In this document: positions 24,279 to 37,795 of the stretch, in pieces
How positions within the stretch are numbered: position 1 is the stretch's first letter
Layout: each line of letters starts with the position of its first letter
NCBI RefSeq assembly: GCF_014192415.1
Contig: NZ_JACHXY010000001.1
Location: 558,001 to 622,000, forward strand
Direction of reading: 5' to 3'
Source: Microbacterium proteolyticum
GTDB lineage: Bacteria; Actinomycetota; Actinomycetes; Actinomycetales; Microbacteriaceae
DNA length: 64,000 nucleotides
Notes under the pieces: model-generated
Databases searched by the model: none
Seen by the model: the letters and a program-made list of their open reading frames with translations, nothing else
What the model was told of the DNA's origin: nothing
Program-made: the position numbers and the translations under genes

Positions 24279-24731
24279 ATGGCTGACCTGCGTCTCGTCG
24301 AACTGTCCGCCGCCACGATCGTGGCGGTGAACACTCTGTCGCTCAAGCCCGGCCAGGAGCAGTTCCTCGCTCCGGTCAGCTACGGCATCGCCGCGACCGT
24401 CAGCAATCCGCAGACGTCGTGGCAGCGCGTCGTGCTCGACGCCGACGAGGTCGTCGGCTTCGTCAGCGCCAACTTCGACCCCGACGCCCACGAAGAGCAC
24501 TTCCGCTCGGTGCTCTGGCGCATCAACGTCGACGCCGACGAGCAGGGCCGCGGCGTCGGCAGTTACGCCCTCGCCGCCGTTCTCGAAGAGGCACGCGGCC
24601 GCGGCATGGACCACGTCGACGTCATCTACGAACCCGGCGTCGGCGGCCCCGAGGCGTTCTTCGAACGCGTCGGCTTCGAGGCGGTCGGCGAGACCGAGTA
24701 CGGCGAGATCATCGCGCGCGTGCGGGTCTGA
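24279..24731 (+). CDS. GNAT-family N-acetyltransferase
   Basis: A 150-aa GNAT-fold protein. Motif A, the acetyl-CoA pyrophosphate loop, reads RINVDADEQGRGVGSYALAA. The preceding strand is VVLDADEVVGFVSANFDP, and the C-terminal strand contains FFERVGFEAVGETEYGE. The substrate cannot be predicted. The ATG follows TAGCCT by six bases, which fits a leaderless promoter. It converges with the end of the RiPP operon. Confidence 0.88.
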   Translation: MADLRLVELSAATIVAVNTLSLKPGQEQFLAPVSYGIAATVSNPQTSWQRVVLDADEVVGFVSANFDPDAHEEHFRSVLWRINVDADEQGRGVGSYALAAVLEEARGRGMDHVDVIYEPGVGGPEAFFERVGFEAVGETEYGEIIARVRV

Positions 24732-24770
24732 CCCGACCGGCGAGGCGATCCCTCCTCCGCCGCCCCCGCA

Positions 24771-24785
24771 AGCGCCGACGGCGCT
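24771..24785 (-). terminator. Short hairpin at the end of the RiPP operon
   Basis: AGCGCC-N3-GGCGCT, just past the last transporter gene. It is weak and there is no T-run. Confidence 0.35.
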
Positions 24786-24789
24786 CGGA

Positions 24790-25566
24790 TCACCGTACGT
24801 CTCGCCGCAGGAACGACCACGCGCCCGCGGCGAGCGCGGTGGCTACCCACGCGGTCGCTAGAGCGGACGCCATTTCCTGCGTCGGCCCGACGGCCTCGCC
24901 GACACCGAGGGCCGCGAGATCGAGCCCGGCGCCGCGGAGCATCGTGGGCAGCGGCATCCAGGCCGCGATGTCCGGCCACGGGGAAGCCGCCATGAGCGCG
25001 GCGCTGATCGAGAAGGGGGCGACGAACAGCGCCGGCAGATGCGCCTGGACGACGAGCCCCACGCCGAGACCCCAGACCGCGGCGGCCGCGCCCACGGCGA
25101 GGATCGCCAGGACACCACCGAGGTCCACGCCGGCGAGACCGAAGGTCGGCACCAGCGCAAGACGTCCGCCGAGCACCGCCGCGGCGGCGACCATCGCTCC
25201 GCCCAGCGCCGTGAACGGCACCCGACCGACGAGCGCCCAGGGGCGCGACTGCAGCGTCGCCCTCTGCGCGACCACCCCGGAGCGACGGTCCAGCGTGTAC
25301 CGGAACGAGCCGTAGATCGCGGCCATGACGGCGGCATAGACGCCGATCACCGCCGACAACGGCCCGACCACGAGCATCTTCACGTCATCGGGCGCGCCGG
25401 CGACGTCAGCGGGGATGCTCGCGGCGATGGACGCGGAGAGCACGAGCGTGGCCGCAGCGATCCCACCCAGGGGCAGGTCGACCTCGAAGCTCCGCCCCTG
25501 AGCGGCGAGAGTGCGACCCGCGCGGCGCAGCAGGGAGGGACGGGTGACCACGGAAGCGGCCGTCAC
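24790..25566 (-). CDS. mpaT3: Daptide-cluster ABC-2 type permease subunit (second)
   Basis: A 258-aa integral membrane protein with six hydrophobic stretches, for instance LPLGGIAAATLVLSASIAA, AVIGVYAAVMAAIYGSF and AILAVGAAAAVWGLGVGLVV. The layout is that of ABC-2 exporter permeases. The GTG start overlaps the preceding permease stop as GTGA. With the ATPase and first permease it should form the exporter for the mature peptides and possibly give self-protection. Subunit lettering follows the Microbacterium paraoxydans daptide cluster by analogy and is not secure. Last gene of the operon. Confidence 0.8.
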   Translation of the reverse strand: MTAASVVTRPSLLRRAGRTLAAQGRSFEVDLPLGGIAAATLVLSASIAASIPADVAGAPDDVKMLVVGPLSAVIGVYAAVMAAIYGSFRYTLDRRSGVVAQRATLQSRPWALVGRVPFTALGGAMVAAAAVLGGRLALVPTFGLAGVDLGGVLAILAVGAAAAVWGLGVGLVVQAHLPALFVAPFSISAALMAASPWPDIAAWMPLPTMLRGAGLDLAALGVGEAVGPTQEMASALATAWVATALAAGAWSFLRRDVR

Positions 25567-26288
25567 GCGAACCGCCGTCGTCCGACGATCCACGCACCCG
25601 TCGTCAGTGCGAGGGCCCAGGCCAGAGCCACGGCCAACCCGCCGCCCGGCGGGAGCAGCACGGGATGGTTCTGAGGCGACGCCAGCGCAGCGAGCGACAA
25701 CCCCGGCAGGAAGCGGGCCACGTCGGGCGCGGTGCCGAGCAGGGCGAGCTCGAAGGCGATCGGGCCTGCCAGCACCAGGGCTGCCGCGGCGTAGTAGTTG
25801 CCCACGATCCAGCCGACCGCGGCACCGAAGACCGACCCCAGCGCCGTCGCGGGAAGCGCTCCGAGCGCCGTGCGGAACACCGCCGGGGAAGGGGCGAACG
25901 TGAGACCGTTCACGCTCATCACCACGGCGACGACACCGCACCATAGGAGGGTCAGGCCCGCGGTGAGGATCAGTCCGACGACCATCGCCGCGAGGACCTT
26001 GCCCACGAACGCGCGCGCGAACCCGACCTGGACGACCGTCCGGCCCATGGATCCGTAATAGAACTCGCGGGTCACGCCGAACGCCCCCGCGAACGCCGCC
26101 ACCACGAAGGTCCACGCGACCGGGGCGAAGAGCAGACCCGCGGCGGTCTCGGCATCCAGGCTCGTCATCCGCCCGAGGGTGTCGTCGCTGGTGAGGACGA
26201 TGACGGGGACGAACCCCGCCAGCAGCAGGACGGCGAGGGTATTGAATCCACTGCGCGCGCGCAGGATCTCGGCACGCATCGCCCTCAT
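25563..26288 (-). CDS. mpaT2: Daptide-cluster ABC-2 type permease subunit (first)
   Basis: A 241-aa membrane protein. It opens MRAMRAEILRARSGFNTLAV, the amphipathic start typical of ABC-2 permeases. About six transmembrane segments follow, including AAGLLFAPVAWTFVVAAFAG and AAALVLAGPIAFELALLG. The extracellular-loop-adjacent FGVTREFYYGSMGRTVVQV matches permeases of bacteriocin and lantibiotic immunity exporters. The ATG overlaps the ATPase stop (TGATG). Six helices per permease suggest a one ATPase (dimer) plus two permeases complex. Confidence 0.82.
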   Translation of the reverse strand: MRAMRAEILRARSGFNTLAVLLLAGFVPVIVLTSDDTLGRMTSLDAETAAGLLFAPVAWTFVVAAFAGAFGVTREFYYGSMGRTVVQVGFARAFVGKVLAAMVVGLILTAGLTLLWCGVVAVVMSVNGLTFAPSPAVFRTALGALPATALGSVFGAAVGWIVGNYYAAAALVLAGPIAFELALLGTAPDVARFLPGLSLAALASPQNHPVLLPPGGGLAVALAWALALTTGAWIVGRRRFA

Positions 26289-27004
26289 CACGCGCGACTC
26301 CCCTCGACGAGGTCGAAGTAGCGATCCTCGAGGGAATCTCCGGGGCCGCACACGAGGTCGCCGAGCGCGCCGGAATACAGCACCCGACGCTGGAGGATGA
26401 CGACTTCGTCGACGGTGTGCTCGAGTTCGGCGAGCTGATGGCTCGACACCAGGACCGATCCCCCGCCCTCCGCGAAGGCCCGCAGGTAGCGACGCAACCA
26501 CCGGATGCCGTCCGGGTCCAGACCGTTGGAGGGTTCGTCGAGGACGAGCGTGCGAGGCGAGCCGATGAGGGCGGCCGCGAGCCCGAGCCTCTGCACCATG
26601 CCCGTCGAGAAGGATTTCACTCGTCGCCGGGCGTCGTCGGCGAGTCCGACCTCGTCGAGAACCTCGTCGACACGCCGGCGGGGGGCGCCGACGGCGAGGC
26701 GGGCGATCTCGAGGTGTCGCCGCGCGGTGATGCCGGTCTCGAAGCCGAATCCGTCCATCTGCACACCGATGTGGGCCGATGGCTGTACGAGACGGCGGAA
26801 CGGCAGGCCGTCGACGAGCGACTCGCCCTCGGTCGGGGCGGACAGGCCGACGACGGTGCGCAGCGTCGTGGACTTCCCCGCTCCGTTCGGGCCGAGCAGT
26901 CCCACGATGCTGCCGCGACGCACGGCGAACGAGACGTCATCGACGGCCGTGCGGGATCCGTATCTCTTGGTGAGGTGGCGCACCTCGATAGCGGGGTCGA
27001 TCAT
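26288..27004 (-). CDS. mpaT1: Daptide-cluster ABC transporter ATP-binding protein
   Basis: A 238-aa ATPase. Walker A GPNGAGKST is at residues 38-46. A Q-loop region follows (HIGVQMDGFG). The signature is FSTGMVQRLGLA in place of the usual LSGGQ form, as in other antibiotic-peptide exporters. Walker B is TLVLDEPSNGLDPDG, and the switch His lies in VSSHQLAELEH. The ATG overlaps the protease stop (ATGA). It should energise export by the two following ABC-2 permeases. Confidence 0.93.
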   Translation of the reverse strand: MIDPAIEVRHLTKRYGSRTAVDDVSFAVRRGSIVGLLGPNGAGKSTTLRTVVGLSAPTEGESLVDGLPFRRLVQPSAHIGVQMDGFGFETGITARRHLEIARLAVGAPRRRVDEVLDEVGLADDARRRVKSFSTGMVQRLGLAAALIGSPRTLVLDEPSNGLDPDGIRWLRRYLRAFAEGGGSVLVSSHQLAELEHTVDEVVILQRRVLYSGALGDLVCGPGDSLEDRYFDLVEGSRA

Positions 27005-28692
27005 TGTCGGGTCTCTTTCGTATCGGTGTCCGGCGGGCGCAGGAACGAGAGGAGGACAGACGCCGGCTCGACGACGTGGGTCGTCCACGCCGCCTCGAGC
27101 GCGGAGCGGGAGCCGATGCGAAGGCTCGCGCGGCCGGCAGCGGGCAACTCGGCGCTCTCGGCGACGTCGACGGCGCCGATGGCGACGGCGTCCACGTCGA
27201 CTCCGCTCACCTCGACGGGCGAGAACGCCGAGAGGGGCGCTGCCCGGGGGCGCAGCGCCGTCGCCCGCGCGGTCCCGGTCGCGACCTGCGCGGAGAGGAT
27301 CCCGCTCGTCGACAGGTCGACCGGGGTGCCGTCGGCCACGGGGAGCGGCGCGGGCGAACCAGCCGTCGACACGAGGAGCACCCGGTCGTCGACCACGACG
27401 AAGCCGGTCGTGCGGACGTCGTCGACCGGGGTGAAGGCCGCCGCGCCGAGGGCGACCGCGGTCACGGACGCCGCCAGCAGGACGAATCGGACGCGCCCCC
27501 TGCCCCGCCTCCAGCACGCCGCGAGCCATCGCGCGACGCGGACACCGACGGCGATCACGACGAACGCTTGAAGGGCGAGGACGAGGAACGCGCCCACCGG
27601 TCCCGTGCCGGCGAGCGCGCGCACCGTCCGTTCGACGGCGAGCCACACGATCACGGCGGGCACCAGGGCGCTGAGCACCCCGAAGGGCACGCTCCATCGA
27701 CGCGGGAACGCCCGAGAGACCGCCGAGCCGCCGAAGAGGACGCGACGCAGGGCGTCCGCGGCGTCGTCCATCGTGCGGGCGCGCAGACGGGGCTCGTCCA
27801 GCGCGCTCATGAGCGCCACGTACCCGTCGAATCGGACGAAGGGGACGAGGTTGACGACGACCACGGTGCCGCACGTGCACGCCACGACGAGCAGCGCCCG
27901 ACGCAGGTCGGAGTCGGGAACGGCGAGCGCCCCCAGGGCTGCGGCCCCGCCGAGGACGGCGTGGACCGCCGGACCCGCCAAGGCGACGGCGACGCGGGAG
28001 GCGCGCGAGGGAAGGCGCCACGCGTCGGTGACGTCGACGAAGAACGCCGGCCCGAGGTACAACAGAATGACCCCGGCTCGCCGCGGCCGTGCACCCGCAT
28101 GCGAAAGCGTCACGCCGTGCGCGGCCTCATGGGCGACGGTCGCGGCGATCATCACCGCCGCGACGAGGACCACGTCGACCAGCGGGAGCGGAGCCGTGAG
28201 CGCGCGCGCCGCCGTCTCGGCCTGCCACAGCAGCGCGACCACACCCAGCACGACCACCGCCGCGAGCGGCCACACCAGCCACCGACGCAGGAGCGGCCGC
28301 AACAACCGAAGCAGACGATCGAAGAGGAGGGGGGCGCGCAGCGTGGCGAGCTGGATCGTCAGCGGCGGCCGGTAGGTCAGGCGCCCGGCGGGACGCCGCT
28401 GCGCACCCTCGAGCAGACCGGCCCGCCGGAACCGCTCCACGAGTGCGGCGAACGCTTCCGGCTCCTGATCGGGGGCGAAGCGCCGGCGCAGGTCGTCGAC
28501 GGCGGCGGCGCCGTCCATCGCACGCAGGGTCGCCGCGACGGTCGAGGACGCCCGCGACACCGGCACGCCGTCGACGCTGACGAGCCAATGCCCGCCGTCG
28601 GCCGCGGGCTCGATGCGCACGGTGTCGGCGAGCCGCGGCGGTACCGCGGCGTGCGGTGCAGGGGCGTGCGGGGGGAGCACATCACGTGACAT
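27001..28692 (-). CDS. mpaP: M50-type membrane zinc protease with N-terminal PqqD/RRE-like domain (daptide leader peptidase candidate)
   Basis: A 563-aa protein. Residues about 25-100 resemble a PqqD-type winged helix (RRE), with HWLVSVDGVPVSRASSTVAA and ALVERFRRAGLL. A membrane region follows. The zinc motif HEAAH is at residues 188-192 and the second M50 motif, NLVPFVRFDG, at 281-290. Further helices lead to a C-terminal domain with one hydrophobic segment and a beta-rich tail. The start is ATG at 28692 after GGAGG, overlapping the methyltransferase end; a codon at 28713 has no ribosome site. It probably removes the leader at the membrane before export, as proposed for MpaP in daptide clusters. 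Confidence 0.88.
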   Translation of the reverse strand: MSRDVLPPHAPAPHAAVPPRLADTVRIEPAADGGHWLVSVDGVPVSRASSTVAATLRAMDGAAAVDDLRRRFAPDQEPEAFAALVERFRRAGLLEGAQRRPAGRLTYRPPLTIQLATLRAPLLFDRLLRLLRPLLRRWLVWPLAAVVVLGVVALLWQAETAARALTAPLPLVDVVLVAAVMIAATVAHEAAHGVTLSHAGARPRRAGVILLYLGPAFFVDVTDAWRLPSRASRVAVALAGPAVHAVLGGAAALGALAVPDSDLRRALLVVACTCGTVVVVNLVPFVRFDGYVALMSALDEPRLRARTMDDAADALRRVLFGGSAVSRAFPRRWSVPFGVLSALVPAVIVWLAVERTVRALAGTGPVGAFLVLALQAFVVIAVGVRVARWLAACWRRGRGRVRFVLLAASVTAVALGAAAFTPVDDVRTTGFVVVDDRVLLVSTAGSPAPLPVADGTPVDLSTSGILSAQVATGTARATALRPRAAPLSAFSPVEVSGVDVDAVAIGAVDVAESAELPAAGRASLRIGSRSALEAAWTTHVVEPASVLLSFLRPPDTDTKETRQ

Positions 28693-29503
28693 CGGCGCCT
28701 CCGTCGTCGGCACGGGTGTGCAGCAGCACCATGCCCTCGCCCGGGACGGCCCCGTTCGTGCGCACCGGGATCGCCGCAGGCCGGGCGAATCCGGCTTCCC
28801 GCAGCTCGGCGGACACCGTCGCCGCGTCGAGGAGCTGCAGACGCGTGGTCAATACGCGCACGGGGCCGGGTGACGCGGGCAGCGGGAGCGGCATCCAGTT
28901 GACGATGCGTGCTGCGCCGCCCGCCTCGACCTGCTGGGATTGCAGATAGGCCTTGCGTCCGCGTGCCGTCTCGACGGCGATCTCCTGATCGGCGGAAGCG
29001 CGTAGCCGGGTGACCGCGACGGGCCCCGCGACCGAGAGCAGCACGCTCCCAGTGGGAGCGAGGTGCCGACGGACGGCGGCGTAGAGGCGTCGACGGTCCG
29101 CTCCGCCGAGCAGCGTGATGGAGGTCGCGCCGAGCACGACGAGATCGAAGACTCGCTCGAGATCGAACGCGCACATGTCGGCGACGACGAACGTGCAGGG
29201 CGCCTGCGGGGGGACGGCGTCGCGCAGCCGTGCGAGCATGTCGGCCGAGAGGTCGAGGGCGGTGACGCGCGCGCCGGACCGCAGCAGCGGGACGGTGAGC
29301 CGACCGGTCCCGGCGGCGAGGTCGAGCACCTCGGGACCGCTGCGGCGCGCGACGGCGAGCACCTCACGGATCTCGGATCGGTCCGGCCCGACGAGATCGT
29401 CGTAGAACCGTGCGCCGTCGCCGGCGTACACGTCGCTCGGGTCGGCGACGCATCCGGCTTCCGCCAGGCGGTGGCGCACGGAGTCGGTCAGCGGTGCGGT
29501 CAT
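28682..29503 (-). CDS. mpaM: SAM-dependent methyltransferase (daptide N,N-dimethylation candidate)
   Basis: A 273-aa class I methyltransferase. Motif I, VLDLAAGTGRLTVPLL, starts near residue 59. The acidic motif II is VTALDLSADMLARL. Motif III/IV is FDLVVLGATSITLL. The ATG at 29503 follows AGGAG; the longer frame from 29734 reads through the third precursor and is artefactual. In the described daptide pathway this enzyme dimethylates the new C-terminal amine left after oxidative decarboxylation and transamination of threonine. Position right after the precursors supports that role. Confidence 0.9.
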   Translation of the reverse strand: MTAPLTDSVRHRLAEAGCVADPSDVYAGDGARFYDDLVGPDRSEIREVLAVARRSGPEVLDLAAGTGRLTVPLLRSGARVTALDLSADMLARLRDAVPPQAPCTFVVADMCAFDLERVFDLVVLGATSITLLGGADRRRLYAAVRRHLAPTGSVLLSVAGPVAVTRLRASADQEIAVETARGRKAYLQSQQVEAGGAARIVNWMPLPLPASPGPVRVLTTRLQLLDAATVSAELREAGFARPAAIPVRTNGAVPGEGMVLLHTRADDGGADVT

Positions 29504-29534
29504 GGCTCCTCGTGGGGTGTAGCGGTGGACCGTC

Positions 29535-29565
29535 GAGGGGGACACGCGGGCGGCGTCTCCCCCTC
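29535..29565 (-). promoter_or_regulatory. Hairpin after the last precursor gene (possible attenuator)
   Basis: GAGGGGGACACGC and GCGTCTCCCCCTC arms with one mismatch, in the gap between the third precursor and the methyltransferase. It could terminate part of transcription or protect the precursor mRNA 3' end. Confidence 0.6.
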
Positions 29566-29573
29566 GGCGGCGT

Positions 29574-29696
29574 TCAGGTTGCGATGGCGACCGTCGCGGC
29601 GGCGATGGCGATGATGTAGCTGGCGTGCTCCCACCACTCCATCGGCGCGTCGAGGGCGTCGAGTTCCTCGAAGCCCAGAGCGAGATCGTTCGGCAT
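29574..29696 (-). CDS. mpaA3: Daptide-type precursor peptide 3
   Basis: A 40-aa peptide on the minus strand. The leader begins MPNDLALG and contains the shared FEELDALDAP motif (residues 9-18). The core starts near MEWWEHASY and continues as a hydrophobic helix-forming stretch ending ATVAIAT. It has no Cys. Thr is the last residue, as required for conversion to the dimethyl-diaminopropane C-terminus in daptides. A perfect AGGAGGTGA site lies six bases before the ATG. Confidence 0.9.
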   Translation of the reverse strand: MPNDLALGFEELDALDAPMEWWEHASYIIAIAAATVAIAT

Positions 29697-29725
29697 GTGT
29701 CACCTCCTCGGTGCGGTAGAGGAAG

Positions 29726-29747
29726 GGATGCCACGGTCGCGGCATCC
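29726..29747 (-). promoter_or_regulatory. GGATGCC hairpin between precursors 2 and 3
   Basis: GGATGCC (29726-29732) and GGCATCC (29741-29747) with an eight-base loop. It may tune relative precursor levels or be a spacer element. Confidence 0.45.
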
Positions 29748-29758
29748 GTCGCGAGTTC

Positions 29759-29887
29759 TCAGGTGGCGGAAAGGGCGATGAGCCCGAGGGCCACGCCGTA
29801 GCTGAAGCCGCGGAACCAATCCCATCCGTCGTCAGGGGCGTCCATCGAGTCGAGCTCGACGAACTCCAGGGTGGAAGTCATGTGCAT
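29759..29887 (-). CDS. mpaA2: Daptide-type precursor peptide 2
   Basis: A 42-aa peptide if read from the first ATG (MHMTSTLEF) or 40 aa from the second ATG at 29881; the AGGAGGTGA site is four and ten bases away respectively. The leader motif is FVELDSMDAP. The core region has DDGWDWFRGFSYG and the C-terminus LGLIALSAT. No Cys; the terminal residue is Thr. The more diverged, Trp/Phe-rich core suggests a distinct product from the same enzymes. Confidence 0.9.
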   Translation of the reverse strand: MHMTSTLEFVELDSMDAPDDGWDWFRGFSYGVALGLIALSAT

Positions 29888-29927
29888 GTCACCTCCTCGA
29901 AGGTCGTGGGGTCGACCGGTTCGACCC

Positions 29928-30065
29928 TCACGTGGCGATAGCGACGCCGATACCGACGACGGCGAGTCCGCCCAGGACGCCCTGATAGAAGCTCTCCCAG
30001 CTCGGGGTCTCCAGGGCGTCGAGCTCCTCGAACTGCAGCTGCGGCGAAAGAGCGAGAGACGTCAT
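29928..30065 (-). CDS. mpaA1: Daptide-type precursor peptide 1
   Basis: A 45-aa peptide. Leader MTSLALSPQLQ plus the FEELDALETP motif; core PSWESFYQGV, then a Gly/Val/Ile-rich helix ending GVAIAT. The ATG overlaps the stop of the oxidative-decarboxylase gene (ATGA) yet also has its own AGGAGGTGA nine bases upstream. All three precursors share FxELDxx(D/E)xP, a Trp shortly after it, a hydrophobic core and terminal Ala-Thr. This is the daptide precursor pattern. Confidence 0.9.
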   Translation of the reverse strand: MTSLALSPQLQFEELDALETPSWESFYQGVLGGLAVVGIGVAIAT

Positions 30066-31276
30066 GTGTGGTCACCTCCTCTCGATCTCATCGGGATGGT
30101 CTCCGGGGGCGAGTCGTGACGCGTCGACGCACGCGGGGTCGGAGCCCACCGGGCCCCCTCGAGCACCGCGCGCACGTCGGGCGCCGTTATCCCGGGCAGA
30201 GCGGGTGCCCGCCCGCCCCACCACCGCTCCACGCGGACCGCCATCGACGTCAGGGCGTCCGGGTCGGGTCGGGTCGCGAGAGGGAGCGCCCATCGCGTGA
30301 CCAGAGCATCGATGCCGGCCGACGGAGCCGTCGGGAGCCGCGTCTCGCGGACCACCTCGCGCCAGAACGCCTTCAACGGCCGCGACGCTCCCCAGCGGGG
30401 GTCGCCGTCCTCGATGCATCGCCACACGCCGGCGACGATCGACGCCGTCGCGCGCATCTTCGTCGTGCGGGCGACGAAGGACACCTCGTTGGCGAGGTAC
30501 CAGTGACGTGGGCTGAAGGACGCGCGCCCGCGCAAGGCCGCCGTGCGCTGCGTGGCCGCGCTCCAGCGCGCGACCCTCAGCCGCGCCGCGGGTGACAGGG
30601 GTCCGTCGCCGAGCCCGATAAGGGCACGGCCGATCGCGACGGCGTGCGCGTGCGCCCGGGGGTGCGCACGTTCCGCCGTGCTGGCACCGGCCAAACGCAG
30701 GAGCGCTTCGAGGCATCCCGTCCGGACCTGCACTCCCGCGAGCGTGGTGTAGTGATCGGCGTCCAGTACGGCGTGGCGCGGGCGAAGGCTTTCGCCGACG
30801 ATCAAGCGCTGCCCGTGATCCGTGCGGACGATCGCGACGGCGTTCGTCTCGGCGGACGTGCCGACGGTGGTGGGAACGGCGATGACGTCGATCGCTGCGA
30901 CGTCGGGGGGCGGCAGCGGCACGACCGCGACACGCTCCGACCGATCGAGCGCCCACCTGAGCGTGCGGGGCGACGCGATACCGACCGCGGCGACCGCCGC
31001 CGTGTCGATCGTCGTGCCCCCTCCCACCGCGACGACCGTCTCGACCCGGGCGTCCCGAAGGCGTGCAGAGATGGCGGCGACGGCCGAGGCGTCGACGCGG
31101 GCGGTGTCGAGGGCGACGACGACCGCAGGATGCGCGACGGCGTCGGCCAGATGCGCGAGCCGCGCGTCGACCACGACAGCCGTCCGACGTCCCGCCGTCA
31201 CCGCCGCGCATACCGAACGGGCGACGGAGAACCCGGCGACGAGCGTCGAGCGTCGCGGGTGCACGATTGCGCTCAC
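30062..31276 (-). CDS. mpaC: Iron-containing alcohol dehydrogenase-like protein (daptide oxidative decarboxylase candidate)
   Basis: A 404-aa member of the Fe-ADH/dehydroquinate-synthase-like superfamily. NAD-binding GGGTTID is at residues 85-91, and the family motif PTTVGTSAE at 135-143. The usual metal-ligand segment (D-x3-H followed by two later His) is not clear: the aligned region reads GVQVRTGCLEALL, without the Asp/His pair. In daptides this protein oxidises and decarboxylates the C-terminal Thr to an aminoketone with help from the RRE accessory protein. GTG start overlapping the aminotransferase stop (GTGA). Assignment rests on family plus cluster context. Confidence 0.88.
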   Translation of the reverse strand: MSAIVHPRRSTLVAGFSVARSVCAAVTAGRRTAVVVDARLAHLADAVAHPAVVVALDTARVDASAVAAISARLRDARVETVVAVGGGTTIDTAAVAAVGIASPRTLRWALDRSERVAVVPLPPPDVAAIDVIAVPTTVGTSAETNAVAIVRTDHGQRLIVGESLRPRHAVLDADHYTTLAGVQVRTGCLEALLRLAGASTAERAHPRAHAHAVAIGRALIGLGDGPLSPAARLRVARWSAATQRTAALRGRASFSPRHWYLANEVSFVARTTKMRATASIVAGVWRCIEDGDPRWGASRPLKAFWREVVRETRLPTAPSAGIDALVTRWALPLATRPDPDALTSMAVRVERWWGGRAPALPGITAPDVRAVLEGARWAPTPRASTRHDSPPETIPMRSRGGDHT

Positions 31277-32523
31277 GACCACCGCTCCGCCATTCGGGCA
31301 AGGCCCACCCGGATCGCCGCGTCGAGTTCCGCGAAGTCGGCGTCGGTGTAACCGTAGGCGGGGAGGAGCTGGATGCCGTCGACCCCCGGATGCACGATCG
31401 CCCCGGCCGTGTGGATTGCGGCCACCAGCTCGGCGACGCGCGCAGCGGGCAAGCGGGGCTCGACAGGGTCCGCCAGCGCCAGGCCGAGGAAGGCGCCGCG
31501 ACCCCGGACCTCGATGGCGAGACCGTCGCGCAGGAGGCCGTCGGCGAGCGCCCGGACCCCCGCGCTCACGCGGGCGATGGCATCCCGCATCCCGCACCCG
31601 CGGAACTCCTCCGCGACCGCGCTGACGGCAGCGGCGCACGTCGGCGTCCCGGCCTGGGTCTCGCCGTGCACGAACACGGCGCCGCGGTCGGCGAACTCCG
31701 CCGCGACGCGCGCACCGACGAGCACCGCCGCGGCTCCGACCGCTCCGTTGGTGAGGGCCTTGGACAGCACCAGCAGGTCGGGCGAACGCGTCCACTCCCT
31801 TGAGGCGAAGAGCGGCCCGGTGCGACCGAATCCCGTCGCGACCTCATCGGCGACGAGCAGGAAGCCGTGCTCGTCGCGGAGGTCCAGAACCGTCTCGACG
31901 AACGCTCTCGAAAGCGGGTGAGCGCCGGTGCCGAGCACCGGCTCGACGACGACGGCGGCCACGCGGGGCCCCTCGCGTCGCAGCAGCGCCCTGAGCTCCG
32001 CACCCTCGTCGCGATGGTCGACGTGACGCACCGTGCGCCGGTCGAGTGCGTACGCACCCTGGCCGAGGGCGTCGCCGCTGAGCGCGTGGCTGCCGTACAT
32101 CGTGCCGTGGTAGCTGCTGCGCAGGCCCACGACGAGCGTGCGCGCACCCTCGCCGCGCTCCCCCTGGTACTGCCTGACGAGCTTCATCACCGCGTCATTG
32201 GCCGCACCGCCCGACGTCGAGAAGATCACGCGGCGGTACGACTCGCGCCCCGTCAGGTCGAGCAGGGCGTCCGCAGCCTCGAGCGCGGGGCGGTGAACGG
32301 TCCGGAAGAGCGTGAGGTACGACGCGTCGCGCAGCGCTTTCGCGATCGCATCCGCGACGCCTTCGTGGCCGTAGCCGAGGGGCACGTTCCACAGGCCGCT
32401 CGTCGCGCATAGGCGCTCCGACCCGTCGGCGTAGCGGATGCGGTGGCCGCGCGCCGAGACGGCGATCCGATCGGCGCCGAATCTCGCATCGGCGCGCACC
32501 AGGGCCGGCCAGACGGGACTCAC
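31273..32523 (-). CDS. mpaD: Class III PLP-dependent aminotransferase (daptide C-terminal transaminase candidate)
   Basis: A 416-aa fold-type I PLP enzyme. Residues: GGAANDAVMKLVRQY at the phosphate-binding turn, VVGLRSSYHGTMYGSHALSG, VVVEPVLGTG, the PLP Asp in LLVADEVATGFGRTG (residue 226) and the PLP lysine in LSKALTNG (K255). In the daptide route it aminates the ketone made from the decarboxylated C-terminal Thr, giving a second amine terminus. The GTG start overlaps the accessory-protein stop. The longer frame from 32679 is out-of-frame tail of the upstream gene. Confidence 0.92.
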   Translation of the reverse strand: MSPVWPALVRADARFGADRIAVSARGHRIRYADGSERLCATSGLWNVPLGYGHEGVADAIAKALRDASYLTLFRTVHRPALEAADALLDLTGRESYRRVIFSTSGGAANDAVMKLVRQYQGERGEGARTLVVGLRSSYHGTMYGSHALSGDALGQGAYALDRRTVRHVDHRDEGAELRALLRREGPRVAAVVVEPVLGTGAHPLSRAFVETVLDLRDEHGFLLVADEVATGFGRTGPLFASREWTRSPDLLVLSKALTNGAVGAAAVLVGARVAAEFADRGAVFVHGETQAGTPTCAAAVSAVAEEFRGCGMRDAIARVSAGVRALADGLLRDGLAIEVRGRGAFLGLALADPVEPRLPAARVAELVAAIHTAGAIVHPGVDGIQLLPAYGYTDADFAELDAAIRVGLARMAERWS

Positions 32524-33629
32524 GCGTTTCCTTTGACGACGACGGGCGCCGAGGGACCGGGCCCCGATGCCCTCGGCCCGGGAACCGGTGACGACGATAC
32601 TTCGCGCGCGGAGCGGGCGAACCGGGATGCCAGGGGTACGCCGGCACGGACTCCGAGACGCTCCGCGGCCTCGGCGCACAAGTGCGCGGCGGACGTCGCG
32701 GATATCCGCTTCATCCGCGCGAGACGCTGCGCGGCACTGTCGGGATCGCTGGAGGTCTGCAGGATCGCCACGACCGCGGCGGTCGTGTCGGAGAGGCGCT
32801 GCCGTCGACGGGTGCGCAGGTCGGCGAGGAGCACTCCCGCCGCCGTCTCCACGAGGAAGGCGTCCTCTGGCCGGGGCCGCGCGTCACCCTCCGACTCCGC
32901 GTCCGCAGACCATCCGAACCCGTCGACCCGCCCCTCACCGGGTCGGATCCCGAGCACGCCCCACACCTCTGCGGCACGCAGGTAGCGCGCGAGCCACGGC
33001 CGGGAGGCGAGTCCGTCGACGAGGACGGGTTCAGCGACGACGTCCGTCAGGGCCGTCCACCGCGGGCGGGCGGCCCACAGGTCGTCGACGGCGGTGTCGA
33101 CGGAGCCGAGGTGCTCGCCCTGGGCGCCCGCGGTGATGCGACCATCGGCGTGGATGTGGAGAGCATTCGGCGGGGCGACGTCGAACGGTGCGTCGACCGC
33201 GTCGGCATCAGCGAGCCGCAGTCTCGGGTCGACGAGCGGGCCGGCGAAGACGCCCGCGTCTCGAGCGAGGTCGGCGTCGTCGAGGAAAGCGCGCCATCCG
33301 TCGAGGTCGAAGAAGCGCATGGCGGTGGGACCCACGAGCTCGACGTAGGCCGCCGAGGCGTAGTGCTGCAGCTCGACCGTGTGACCGGCGACGTGGAGCG
33401 TGTCGCCGATGTCGTCGAACGCTCCCCGGTAGCCGATGACCCGCGCCGCCGTCTCAACCGGGCGGGCATCGGGGACGAGCAGGACGTCGTCCGCGCCGAG
33501 CGCGACCGCGACCCGACCGGCGGGCGCGCCCGGAGCACAGAAGACCGCACGCCGGAAGGACCGGTGTCGCCCCGTGATCCATTCCACGACGAGGCGCGCG
33601 TCGCGCTCGTCGACCGCTCCTCCGGTCAC
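32520..33629 (-). CDS. mpaB: RRE-containing accessory protein (daptide MpaB type)
   Basis: A 369-aa protein, first gene of the RiPP operon. Residues 1-250 are of unknown fold, with no catalytic motif I recognise. Residues about 255-330 look like a winged-helix RRE: EDAFLVETAAGVLLADL, three beta-like strands, then helices through AHLCAEAAERLGV. The tail is Pro/Ser-rich. The GTG at 33629 follows GGGGAGGTG; the longer frame from 33716 has no ribosome site. In the described class the C-terminal RRE binds the leader and delivers it to the oxidative decarboxylase. Confidence 0.83.
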   Translation of the reverse strand: MTGGAVDERDARLVVEWITGRHRSFRRAVFCAPGAPAGRVAVALGADDVLLVPDARPVETAARVIGYRGAFDDIGDTLHVAGHTVELQHYASAAYVELVGPTAMRFFDLDGWRAFLDDADLARDAGVFAGPLVDPRLRLADADAVDAPFDVAPPNALHIHADGRITAGAQGEHLGSVDTAVDDLWAARPRWTALTDVVAEPVLVDGLASRPWLARYLRAAEVWGVLGIRPGEGRVDGFGWSADAESEGDARPRPEDAFLVETAAGVLLADLRTRRRQRLSDTTAAVVAILQTSSDPDSAAQRLARMKRISATSAAHLCAEAAERLGVRAGVPLASRFARSAREVSSSPVPGPRASGPGPSAPVVVKGNA

Positions 33630-33706
33630 AAGACACCTCCCCTCGCCGCAGCTCCGCGCTCGTCCGGAGTGCGGAGGTCCCCGCTGAGACAGAGGACTGA
33701 GAAGAA

Positions 33707-33716
33707 ATGTATACAT
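33707..33716. promoter_or_regulatory. Palindrome in the RiPP operon promoter region
   Basis: ATGTATACAT, a perfect 10-base palindrome in an AT-rich island about 80 bases upstream of the operon start. On the minus strand TGTATACAT could serve as an extended -10. No regulator gene lies in the cluster. Confidence 0.45.
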
Positions 33717-33832
33717 GCCTCATGGGCGGCGCGCGGTGAGGAGTTCCGATTCACCCGGTCGCCCGGAAGCGATCACCTCAGCAGCCCGGCGGGCCGCTCG
33801 TCGGCACGCGGGCGCCACGCCATCACGGCCGA

Positions 33833-33874
33833 GGGATGCCACGTACACCGGGCGGCGCAGGGACGTGGCATCCC
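33833..33874 (-). terminator. Terminator of the ABC exporter operon
   Basis: GGGATGCCACGT (33833-33844) and ACGTGGCATCCC (33863-33874), perfect 12-base arms, 12 bases past the exporter stop. Confidence 0.8.
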
Positions 33875-33886
33875 CTGGAGGCGAGG

Positions 33887-35704
33887 TCAGACGAGCGACT
33901 CGCGCCAGGCGGCGTGGAGCTGTGCGAATTTGCCCGTACCCGCGATGAGGGCGGCGGGACTGTCGTCTTCGATGATGCGCCCGTGCTCCATCACCAGCAC
34001 ACGATCGGCGATGGCCACCGTCGACAGGCGGTGGGCGATGATGATCGCGGTGCGGTCGGCCAGCAGGGTCTGCAGCGCGTCTTGGATGAGACGCTCGCTC
34101 GGGATGTCGAGCGACGCCGTGGCCTCGTCGAGGATCAGTACCGACGGGTCGGCGAGGAACGCCCGGGCGAACGAGATCAGCTGACGCTGGCCCGCCGAGA
34201 CGCGTCCACCGCGCTTGTTCACGTCGGTGTCGTAGCCGTCGGGCAGTTTCGCGATGAACGCATCGGCGCCCACCGCGCGAGCCGCGGCGCGGATCTCGTC
34301 CATCGTCGCATCCGGCTTTCCGAGCGCGATGTTGTCGGCGACGGTCCCGCTGAACAGGTACGCCTCCTGAGTGACCATCACGATGGCGCGGCGCAGGTCT
34401 TTCGGGTGCAACCGGCGCAGATCGACGTCGTCGAGAGTCACTGAGCCCCGGGTCGGGTCGTAGAACCGCGACACGAGTTTGGCAAGCGTCGACTTGCCGG
34501 CACCGGTGGTGCCCACGAGCGCGATCGTCTGCCCGGCGGGGATGTCGAGCGAGAAGTGCGGAAGGATGACGCGATCGTCGGAGTAGCCGAAGGTGACCTC
34601 GTCGAAGCGCACATTCCCCTTCGCCGTCCACAGGTCGACAGGGTCGCTCGGGTCGGGAACGGTCGGCTCCTCTTCGAGGACACCGGACACTTTCTCGAGA
34701 GCGGCCGTGGCCGATTGGTAGGAGTTGAGGAAGAACGCCACCTCCTGCAGAGGCGAGAAGAAGTTGCGTACGTACAGCACGGCCGCCGTGAGCACACCGA
34801 TCTCCAGCGGACCGGCGATCACTCGCCCACCGCCCCACAGCAGCACGAGGGCGACCGAGACCGCGGCGACGGCCATGATGCCCGGCTCGAACGTTCCGAA
34901 GAGCTTGATCGAGCGCATGTTGACGTCGCGGTAGTCGGCGGCGAGCGTGCCGAAGTCGTCGTCGTTGCGCGGCTCTTTACGGAACGCCTTCACCGCGCGG
35001 ATACCCGTCATCGTCTCGACGAACTTCACGATGACCTGCGCGCTGATCACACGGGACTCCCGGTAGATCACCTGCGAGCGCATGTAGAACCAGCGCATGA
35101 GCAGGTACATCGGGATACCCATGACGGTGAGGATCAGCCCCGACTGCCAGTCGATGAGGAAGAGCGCGATGAGGGTGAACAAGCCGTAGAGCACACCCGA
35201 GACGAGCTCGTTCAGACCGCCGTCGAGCAGCTCGCGGATCGTGTCGAGGTCGCTCGTCTGACGCGAGATGATGCGGCCCGACGTGTAGGACTCGTGGAAC
35301 TCGAGGCTGAGCTTCTGCGTGTGCAGGAAGATGCGTTTGCGGAGGTCGAGCATCACCGCCTGCGTCAGCCGGGCGGCGACGACGACGTACCACCCGATGA
35401 GCACGGCACCACCGATGCCGGCGAGCAGATACACGCCGACCACCCCGTAGGTGGGCATCCACTCGCTGCGCTCGATGACGGCGGGCAGGGCGTTGTCGAT
35501 ACCGAAGGCGATGAGCGCGGGGCCGGCGACGCGCAGCGCCGTCGACACCACCAGCACGGCCGCGGCGAGCACGAGCTGTCCGCGCAGCGGCGACACGAGC
35601 GTGCCGAGCAGCCGCAGCGAACGTTGACGGATCGCGCGGCTCTCCGCACGGGTGTAGTCGGAGCGGTCTTCGCCGCTGGTTCCGGAGACGGTCGCGGTGG
35701 TCAT
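33887..35704 (-). CDS. ABC exporter half-transporter with canonical ATPase site residues
   Basis: A 605-aa fused membrane/ATPase protein. Residues about 30-330 contain six transmembrane helices, with exporter features such as [23 protein letters not shown]. The nucleotide-binding domain has Walker [10 protein letters not shown], the Q-loop [12 protein letters not shown], the signature [14 protein letters not shown] and Walker [14 protein letters not shown] with its catalytic Glu and a switch His in AHRLSTV. The ATG overlaps the partner's stop (ATGA). With the partner it forms a heterodimeric multidrug/lipid-type exporter. It is separate from the RiPP operon and has its own leader and terminator. 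Confidence 0.9.
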
Positions 35705-37557
35705 CGGGTCGCCTCCTTCTCGGTGCGGGCGTCATCGGGGATCACCGGGATGGCTCCGGTCCGCGCCTCGCGCTCGGCCTCTTCGAGGCTCGAGATGACG
35801 TATCGGTAGTGATCGCTCTCGCGCAGCAGGTCGGAGTGCGTGCCGACGGCGGTGATGCGGCCGTCCTCGAGCAGGGCGACACGGTCGGCCAGGGTGACCG
35901 TCGACGGGCGGTGCGCGACGACGAGGGCGGTGGTCTCGCTGAGCACCTCGCGCAGGGCGTCCTCGACGAGGGCTTCGGTGTCGACGTCGAGCGCCGACAG
36001 CGGGTCGTCGAGCACGAGCACGGCCGGTCTCGCGGCTACCGCGCGGGCGAGGGCGAGACGCTGGCGCTGGCCGCCCGAAAGGCTCAGACCCTCTTCGCCG
36101 ATGACCGTGTCGAGTCCGTCGGGCAGGTCGTAGACGAAGTGCGCCTGGGCGACCTGCAGCGCTTCGCGCAGGATCTCCTCCGACTCGGGCGACCCGGGCA
36201 CGAGGTCTTCGCGCCCCAGAAGCACGTTATCGCGCACCGTCTGAGAGAACAGCGTCGCGTCTTCGAAGGCCATCCCGACGTGGCGGCGGAGCTCGGCGAG
36301 CGTGAGGTCGCGCACGTCGACGCCGTCGATCAGCACGCGTCCGCCCGTGACGTCGTACAGGCGACCGGGCAGGGTCGTGAGCGTCGTCTTGCCCGACCCG
36401 GTGAGGCCCACGAGCGCCATCGTCTCGCCCGGGCGCAGCACCAAGTCGACGCCGTCGAGCAGATCGGGCTCGGTGTCGGCGGCATCCTGGTATCGGAAAC
36501 GCGCCCCCTCGAACGTGAGCTCGCCACGGGGGGCGGCGATGGTGCGGGGGTTCTCGGGGTCGACGATGGTGTTCTCCTCGTCGAAGACCTCGAAGATGCG
36601 GTCGGTCGCGGTGCGCGCGTCGAGCAGGAACGAGAACAGGAAGCCGATCGACTCCATCGGCCACCGCAGCACCGTGGCCATGGCGAAGAACGCCACCAGC
36701 TCGGCGACCTGCAGCTGACCCGATTGGGTCAGCACGATACCCGCACCGAGGCACACGGCGAAGGCGATGTCGGGCAGCAGCACGAGCCAGAACCAGATCC
36801 AGCCGATCGCGCGGGCCTTGTCGATCTCTGTCTCGCGAAGCGACTCCGCCTGGCGGGTGAACTTCTGCAGCGCGTGCTTCCCGCGCCCGAAAGCCTTGAG
36901 CACACGGATGCCGTGCACGCTCTCTTCCACCGAGGTGGCGAGGTCGCCCGCCTGGTCCTGGCTCTGACGGGTCAGTGCGCCGTAGCGTTTCTCGAACCGG
37001 AAACCGACGTAGATGACCGGGGCGGAGGTGACCAGGAACAGTGCGCCCAGCAGCCAGTGCCACCGGAACAGCAGCACCGCGCCGATCATGATCGTGAGCA
37101 TGTTGACCACGAGCAGGATGACGCCGAAGGCGAGCCAGCGGCGGAGCATGCTGATGTCCTGCATCATGCGCGACAGCAGCTGCCCCGACTGCCAGCGATC
37201 GTGGAAGGCCACCGGAAGCCGCTGCAGACGCGAGTAGAAGGACTGACGCAGGTCGTACTCGACCTTGGTCGCGGGCGCGAGCACGAACCAACGCCGCAGC
37301 CACACCATCGCGGCTTCAGCGAGGCCGAGGCCGAGTACCGCGAGCGAGCCCCAGACGAGGGCGCCGGCGTCGAGCGAGGCAATGGGGCCGGCGACGATCT
37401 GCTCGAGCACGAGCGGGATGGCGAGCGCGAGCAGACTCGCGACGAGAGCCGTGGCGGCACCGGCGATGAGGCGAGGCAGCACGGGGCGCGCGATGGGAAG
37501 CAACCGCGCGAGAGCGCGCAGTGTCGACAGGCGGGGTGGCGGCGAAGCGGTGGTCAT
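35701..37557 (-). CDS. ABC exporter half-transporter with degenerate Walker B
   Basis: A 618-aa partner of the next gene. Membrane domain about residues 20-330 (six helices; [20 protein letters not shown]). ATPase domain: Walker [10 protein letters not shown], signature [16 protein letters not shown] and Walker [14 protein letters not shown], where Asp replaces the catalytic Glu. One degenerate and one canonical site is the hallmark of heterodimeric exporters such as BmrCD or TM287/288. Start ATG at 37557 after GAGGATC; the frame from 37749 is out of use because a separate leader ORF occupies that region. Confidence 0.9.
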
Positions 37558-37614
37558 GATCCTCGTGGGGTCGAAGCGGGCGCCGGGGTGGGGCGCGGGG
37601 AGGGATGCCGGGGC

Positions 37615-37631
37615 GCGACGAAAGTCGTCGC
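37615..37631 (-). promoter_or_regulatory. Hairpin between leader ORF and exporter genes
   Basis: GCGACGA-N3-TCGTCGC, perfect seven-base arms, about 40 bases after the leader ORF stop and 58 bases before the exporter start. It is a possible attenuator stem. Confidence 0.5.
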
Positions 37632-37669
37632 TCGGGCGGTGCCGGTGCGCCGGAGCGCGACACGGAACC

Positions 37670-37744
37670 CTAGAGGCGTCGGCCGGGGCGCGCAGCGACG
37701 GAGGGCGCGGCGACCACGGCGACGAGGGCGTCGGTTCGGTACAT
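37670..37744 (-). CDS. 24-aa leader peptide upstream of the ABC exporter
   Basis: A short ORF: ATG at 37744 preceded by AAGGAGG with five-base spacing, stop TAG at 37670. The peptide reads [14 protein letters not shown] then [10 protein letters not shown]. The ribosome site is the best in this part of the window although the product is tiny, which is typical of regulatory leader ORFs before multidrug ABC genes (bmrB before bmrCD is the known example). A hairpin follows. Ribosome stalling by a translation inhibitor could then induce the exporter; inference. Confidence 0.7.
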
Positions 37745-37795
37745 GGCATCCTCCTTCATCGTGTGGAGCTTCCGCCGGGGGGACGGCAGCCCTCC

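Follow-up and report, generated by a model that had tools for sequence, protein, structure and literature searches.

A complete daptide-type gene cluster with three precursor genes on the chromosome of Microbacterium proteolyticum

The stretch of DNA analysed here (the window) comprises 64,000 nucleotides of Microbacterium proteolyticum (contig NZ_JACHXY010000001.1, positions 558,001 to 622,000) and carries a gene cluster of the daptide class of ribosomally synthesised peptides. Eight protein genes and three precursor genes, all on the minus strand, extend from position 33629 down to 24790. The contig that bears them is 1.8 Mb long, in a genome of 3.48 Mb and nine contigs. Judged by its genes, this is a complete daptide cluster; it adds a new member to a class known since 2023 and does not represent a new type.

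At the upstream end lies the gene of DapB (MpaB-type, 32520..33629), an accessory protein of 369 aa with a GTG start and a putative C-terminal RiPP recognition element (RRE). It is followed by the genes of DapD (31273..32523), a class III aminotransferase of 416 aa (PF00202), and DapC (30062..31276), a protein of 404 aa with the iron-type alcohol dehydrogenase fold (PF00465, score 62.7 against a cut-off of 31.3), a lost metal site and a predicted role as oxidative decarboxylase. The precursors A1 (29928..30065, 45 aa), A2 (29759..29887, 42 or 40 aa) and A3 (29574..29696, 40 aa) have the predicted cores SWESFYQGVLGGLAVVGIGVAIAT, DDGWDWFRGFSYGVALGLIALSAT and MEWWEHASYIIAIAAATVAIAT, respectively. 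A predicted RNA hairpin (29529..29571) stands directly 3' of the A3 stop codon. Downstream follow DapM (28682..29503), an S-adenosylmethionine-dependent methyltransferase of 273 aa, and DapP (27001..28692), a putative intramembrane metalloprotease of 563 aa of the RRE-M50 type. The series closes with a putative transporter: T1 (26288..27004), an ATP-binding cassette (ABC) ATPase of 238 aa (PF00005, 97.6), T2 (25563..26291), a putative ABC-2 permease of 242 aa (PF12698, E value 0.0048, under the cut-off), and T3 (24790..25566), a putative permease of 258 aa. T3 gave no Pfam match and is named from its position beside T1 and T2 and its hydrophobic sequence.

The initial annotation of this DNA had given the same gene order, from the RRE protein to the ABC-2 permeases, and three precursors of 40–45 aa ending in Ala-Thr; both were recovered between 24790 and 33629, with precursors of 45, 42 and 40 aa, each with this dipeptide at its C-terminus. 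Its placement on one strand with three tiny genes also stood, but nine protein genes were counted where its own list holds eight, and the figure of nine was rejected. Overlaps of the GTGA or ATGA type, said to join almost all genes, were seen at 6 of the 10 junctions (B/D, D/C, C/A1, P/T1, T1/T2 and T2/T3). The M/P junction is an 11-nt overlap, and gaps of 46 nt (A1/A2), 62 nt (A2/A3) and about 70 nt (A3/M) separate the remaining genes.

The RRE protein gene had been drawn too long, up to an ATG at 33716. No Shine-Dalgarno sequence is present upstream of this ATG, whereas GGGGAGGTG stands upstream of the GTG at 33629 as ribosome site. The two closest DapB homologues from other contigs have 368 and 369 aa, which is the length given by the 33629 start. 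Since the ribosome site occurs only there and the homologue lengths fit, 33629 is most likely the start of DapB, and 33716 was rejected. For A2, both candidate starts (29887 and 29881) are preceded by a good ribosome site.

A DapB match was found in 49 of 295 Microbacterium genomes (46 over the cut-off) and only once in the genome of the window. The closest named loci are those of Microbacterium sp. VKM Ac-2923 and Leaf151, with DapB proteins 85% identical to that of the window. Of the 52 entries compared, 51 are distinct loci, because L033 and L073 stand for the same record. The grouping into clades is based on sequence identity and not on a tree: clade I holds nine loci including the window, clade II 31 (29 in the statistics) and clade III five, with L069 standing apart. 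The order B-D-C-A-M-P-T1-T2-T3 is complete in 40 of the 51 loci by hand count. Four of the other 11 show this order up to T2, two end at a contig edge and five are irregular.

The class assignment rests on family models, and the genes, their order, family membership, motifs and conservation are direct observations. For each of DapB, DapD, DapC, DapM and DapP the best NCBIfam match is a daptide model, and the precursors match the separate models for MpaA1, MpaA2 and MpaA3. Seven of these eight matches lie above the curated cut-off: DapB (NF041823, 221.5 against 150), DapD (NF041821, 552.5 against 450), DapM (NF041820, 243.4 against 175), DapP (NF041824, 370.9 against 300), A1 (NF041805, 89.1 against 40), A2 (NF041806, 61.2 against 40) and A3 (NF041807, 83.5 against 40). 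A DapB, a DapC encoded beside it, DapD and DapM, DapP, and precursors with an ELExMEAP-like leader motif, a hydrophobic core and a C-terminal Thr are all present. With five enzymes and three precursors fitting daptide models and the gene order recurring across the genus, the match is beyond chance at the level of sequence, and the class named by the initial annotation is supported.

DapC alone remains below its curated cut-off (NF041822, 280.5 against 300). The other clade I DapCs scored share this shortfall (L032 286.9, L074 271.3, L076 266.8), as do those of L069 (283.8) and L071 (285.9), whereas those of L034 (373.8) and L036 (362.2) pass. The cut-off thus seems to split a real family. The NCBI model for daptide dehydrogenases misses four scored clade I members, which therefore appear in public annotation as plain alcohol dehydrogenases; close relatives of the window DapC carry the NCBI name 'iron-containing alcohol dehydrogenase'. 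A homologue search with DapC, with scores computed for the 7998 candidates that had the most words in common, gave 73 matches, many of them nameless. Eight of the matches, that of the window among them, are on contigs with the same lengths as contigs of daptide loci compared here. The named homologues with at least 59% identity are Microbacterium 'iron-containing alcohol dehydrogenases', one source giving NADP-dependent alcohol dehydrogenase. Near 45% identity the named matches are mostly Microbacterium daptide-type RiPP biosynthesis dehydrogenases, and the most distant homologue is a Streptomyces daptide dehydrogenase. The initial annotation had pointed out that closest enzyme homologues outside daptide clusters would speak against the class; for DapC, judged by these names, this was not borne out. 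The idea that the dehydrogenase below the cut-off is a different enzyme was rejected, because its relatives share the shortfall and its named homologues include daptide dehydrogenases.

Iron-type alcohol dehydrogenases hold their metal partly by an Asp and a His. The DapC of the window and its relatives have Glu190 and Arg194 at metal-site positions (48 of 48), and the corresponding stretch reads LEALLR in the window against LDVLVH in two of three compared relatives with solved structures. This replacement fits the description of TfDapC from Thermobifida fusca, whose metal ligands are substituted and which is active without added metal (PMC12338566; statements on published daptides refer to sections of this article and of PMC10036551). 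Lys255 of DapD is present in 49 of 50 loci and the HExxH motif of DapP in 46 of 46, although the Pfam M50 score of DapP (24.6) is below the cut-off of 27.2. T1 has an Asp at the position expected for the Q-loop Gln in 48 of 49 loci, the remaining one showing a gap. This Asp might mark an immunity pump, by analogy with the 'E-loop' of LanF proteins.

The structure of DapB was modelled from 34 sequences, with a mean predicted local distance difference test score of 85.6. The eight best VIA-align rows for its C-terminal domain (residues 249–326) are lasso B1 proteins, MibB, TbtB and PqqD, which carry RREs. The scores are modest (VIA-align Z 6.1 to 3.9, best Foldseek E value 0.04), and the domain is described here as RRE-like on the basis of the model. 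With the full-length model, neither Foldseek nor VIA-align gave a convincing match outside the RRE, which is not taken as a sign of a new fold. Two adjacent DapB-like genes occur in 12 of the 51 loci (L034, L037, L039, L041, L050, L051, L052, L053, L056, L057, L060 and L078), the extra copy being about 30–34% identical to the DapB of the window; in L078 the genes are in pieces.

The leaders of the window precursors contain the motifs ELDALETP, ELDSMDAP and ELDALDAP, and all three precursors end in Thr. Position -7 is a Leu in each leader, and position -4 is either Leu or Met; in MpaA1, Ala at either of these positions abolished processing (PMC10036551). For all cores identified, masses were computed on the assumption that cleavage follows the motif and that the terminal Thr is changed to dimethyl-1,2-propanediamine (Dmp). 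The predicted [M+H]+ values of the window products are 2377.33, 2600.33 and 2401.27. For the cores of L036 and L040 the Dmp masses are 2363.3, 2232.3 and 2339.3, equal to the three daptide ions published for M. paraoxydans (2363, 2232 and 2339; PMC10036551), and no other locus gives all three. The published amino acids of compound 1 (Asp and Gln, no Glu or Lys) agree with the A1 core of these two loci as well, and all residues named in the published mutants occur in the A1 leader of both, ELDPMEAP. Because masses, amino acids and leader residues agree, L036 and L040 likely carry either the mpa cluster itself or a close copy that yields identical products, and A1, A2 and A3 of the window would therefore correspond to the precursors of these loci. 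As a caution, a DapC homologue named M. paraoxydans probably belongs to L060, whose cores differ.

The predicted cut deserves a separate remark for clade II. In many A2 precursors of this clade (L034, L037, L043, L045 and others) no Pro precedes the predicted cut, MEAL being followed by NDTDD, and in L044 and L063 a Gln stands before the A2 core. Since the Pro is missing, the protease site of A2 in such loci may differ.

Compared with the mpa cluster of M. paraoxydans DSM 15019 (PMC10036551), the window contains the same genes, in the same order as in the likely mpa-type loci L036 and L040, and shares three precursors of the MpaA1, MpaA2 and MpaA3 families. Protein identities between the window and L036 are 42% for DapB, 59% for DapD, 45% for DapC, 52% for DapM, 46% for DapP and 74% for T1; core identities are 67% (A1), 45% (A2) and 73% (A3). 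The window differs from L036 and L040 in its predicted masses and its chromosomal site. The tfDap cluster of T. fusca and the saDap cluster of Streptomyces azureus (PMC12338566) share DapA, DapB, DapC, DapD, DapM, DapP and transporter genes with the window, along with a DapC whose metal ligands are substituted. However, both encode a YcaO protein, and tfDap also a dehydratase and a monooxygenase, none of which was found in the cluster of the window; they have five or four precursors instead of three. With 1,034 putative daptide clusters published (PMC12338566), the cluster described here adds one divergent member to a class of more than 1,000.

Taken together, these results make it very probable that the window holds a complete chromosomal daptide cluster whose three precursors would be converted by the M. 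paraoxydans route to peptides that likely carry a positively charged dimethyl-diaminopropane at the end where a carboxylate would otherwise stand. For this strain we infer chemistry, cleavage, export and activity as follows. The RRE of DapB would bind the leader through its ELDxL/M motif and present the C-terminal Thr to DapC, which would oxidise and decarboxylate it to a ketone with NAD(P), probably without a metal. DapD would transaminate the ketone, DapM would add two methyl groups and DapP would cut after the Pro at the leader end. T1–T3 would either carry the peptides out of the cell or remove them from the membrane of the producer itself, and joint action of the three peptides on membranes is likely.

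Each of these steps belongs to a separate enzyme, and a daptide-type cluster could thus reach another end point if transamination or methylation ended early or went further, with aminoacetone or a primary, monomethyl or trimethyl amine in place of the dimethyl amine. TfDapM gave a trimethyl product in vitro (PMC12338566), and the identity of DapM and DapC of the window to their L036 counterparts is 52% and 45%. Yet DapM and DapD both exceed their daptide cut-offs, and the mpa-type relative, with enzymes about 50% identical, matches the published dimethyl products by mass. In addition, the open reading frames assigned from 24279 to 37749 include neither a YcaO gene nor any further tailoring gene. 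We therefore regard a different end point as improbable. A relic or silent cluster, with intact genes that are unexpressed or with a cluster in the course of being lost, would agree with the patchy spread across the genus. This explanation appears more remote still, since the reading frames are intact and the ratios of nonsynonymous to synonymous change (dN/dS) of the clade I cores of A1 and A2 are 0.14–0.15; A3 (0.79) lends no support here.

Beyond the predicted terminal diamine, the wider comparison adds a conserved set of three peptides, in which the added value of this finding lies. Three precursors in a row were found in 46 of 46 loci with a readable interval between DapC and DapM (46 of the 51 loci). 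L042, L059, L080, L081 and L082, with another gene order or missing genes, were left out of this count. The search required the motif and the final Thr, so that precursors lacking these would be missed; the A2 precursors of L044 and L063, missed by the pattern because of the Gln before the core, were added to the count separately and left out of the conservation statistics. For each clade I precursor the nearest peptide in clade II belongs to the same kind (27 of 27), as does the nearest clade I peptide for each precursor of clade II (87 of 87). In clades I and II the cores are more alike than the leaders in five of six comparisons (clade III one of three), and core dN/dS is 0.11–0.15 in five of six. 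The exception, A3 of clade I (0.79), results from very low synonymous change: its core has a proportion of synonymous differences of 0.083 against 0.37 in its leader, hence almost no synonymous change. Mean core identities within clade II are 0.82 (A1), 0.83 (A2) and 0.91 (A3), compared to 0.57–0.67 for DapB, DapC, DapM and DapP and 0.76 for DapD. The conservation statistics leave out core pairs of unequal length, which make up 28 of the 406 A1 pairs in clade II and 6 of the 10 A2 pairs in clade III.

Outside the genus, a precursor model was matched in 9 of 398 family genomes sampled, two of the nine being in Microbacterium. Of six loci taken, L103, L104 and L105 have three precursors that are A1-, A2- and A3-like by eye and in the same order, with an A2 core near that of the window. 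Three precursors of a more distant kind are present in L106 and L107, and L108 gave matches for DapB and the ABC ATPase only. Mixtures of the M. paraoxydans peptides (1+3, 2+3 and 1+2+3) are more hemolytic than the single peptides (PMC10036551).

Several points weigh against a team of three. From clade II to clade III the nearest neighbour is of its own kind in 24 of 29 cases for A1, 7 of 29 for A2 and 29 of 29 for A3; from clade III to clade II the figures are 4, 0 and 4 of 5, and from clade III to clade I they are 5, 3 and 5 of 5. The core does not exceed the leader in identity for A3 of clade I (0.86 against 0.88) or for A1 (0.75 against 0.77) and A3 (0.89 against 0.97) of clade III. T1 of clade II is as conserved as the cores (0.83), and over the class as a whole the number of precursors and the order of genes show little conservation (PMC10036551).

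On balance, the pattern suggests that the three peptides likely work as a team. The natural function of daptides is called unclear by the authors of the published work. If three peptide lineages indeed stay side by side across the genus and beyond, that function probably depends on the set and not on a single peptide. Conservation of the trio within the genus is not described in the main-text sections of PMC10036551 and PMC12338566 considered here.

The hairpin behind A3 is a further shared feature. In 45 of 46 loci the RNA immediately behind the stop codon of A3 can fold into a strong hairpin with a stem of at least 8 bp, compared to 1 of 46 in a stretch of equal length after A1. A z-score below -3 was obtained for 27 of 46 loci and for none of the 46 controls; these values come from mononucleotide shuffles and are rough, and as a control the comparison to the A1 stretch carries more weight. 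The sequence of the hairpin differs among clades, its shape is kept, and few of the hairpins are followed by a run of T. It could act as a partial terminator or a transcript stabiliser that sets the level of the precursors against that of the downstream genes. The main-text passages of PMC10036551 and PMC12338566 considered here do not mention it.

A more far-reaching proposal is that Microbacterium daptides form an obligate three-part system: anciently separate A1, A2 and A3 would assemble in the membrane, with selection keeping the cores nearly fixed, the A3 hairpin setting the ratio of precursor to enzyme, and T1–T3 pulling the complex from the producer's own membrane. We put this forward tentatively, as possible but somewhat doubtful. 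In PMC10036551 and PMC12338566 the transporter is regarded as an exporter. One ATPase gene and two permease genes in a peptide operon are likewise known from the LanFEG lantibiotic immunity transporters (PMC5786555), which protect the producer by driving the peptide out of its membrane, a comparison meant only in terms of how the system works. T1 has its best NCBIfam match in TIGR03740 of that group, yet with 185.5 it stays below the cut-off of 309.75 and is thus not a member.

The cluster is flanked by genes of the genus core. Next to T3 lies a gene that is acetyltransferase-like by eye (24279–24731; 98 of 99 genomes), and next to DapB an ABC exporter pair (33887–37749; 97 of 99 genomes for its first gene). 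At least one flank stands beside the cluster in nine of nine clade I loci and both in six of nine (hand count); in the 42 loci outside clade I neither flank gene is beside the cluster within the stretch examined. Within 72,556 plasmid records DapB has a single, distant match, in a plasmid of Streptomyces. In view of this, of the 1.8 Mb contig and of the genus-core flanks, a plasmid-borne cluster was rejected. No recombinase gene was seen within the cluster. In five relatives without it (L083–L086 and L090) the flanks align and are only about 100–320 bp apart; the stretch that is missing there is bounded by 24719–24742 and 33858–33889. L087–L089 have 1.4–2.6 kb of other DNA between the same flanks, and more distant members (L091–L102) carry longer inserts, by eye sugar-transport and glycosidase operons. 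As the site is nearly empty, or otherwise filled, between the same genus-core flanks in relatives, the cluster was likely gained or lost as a whole at a site of flexible content.

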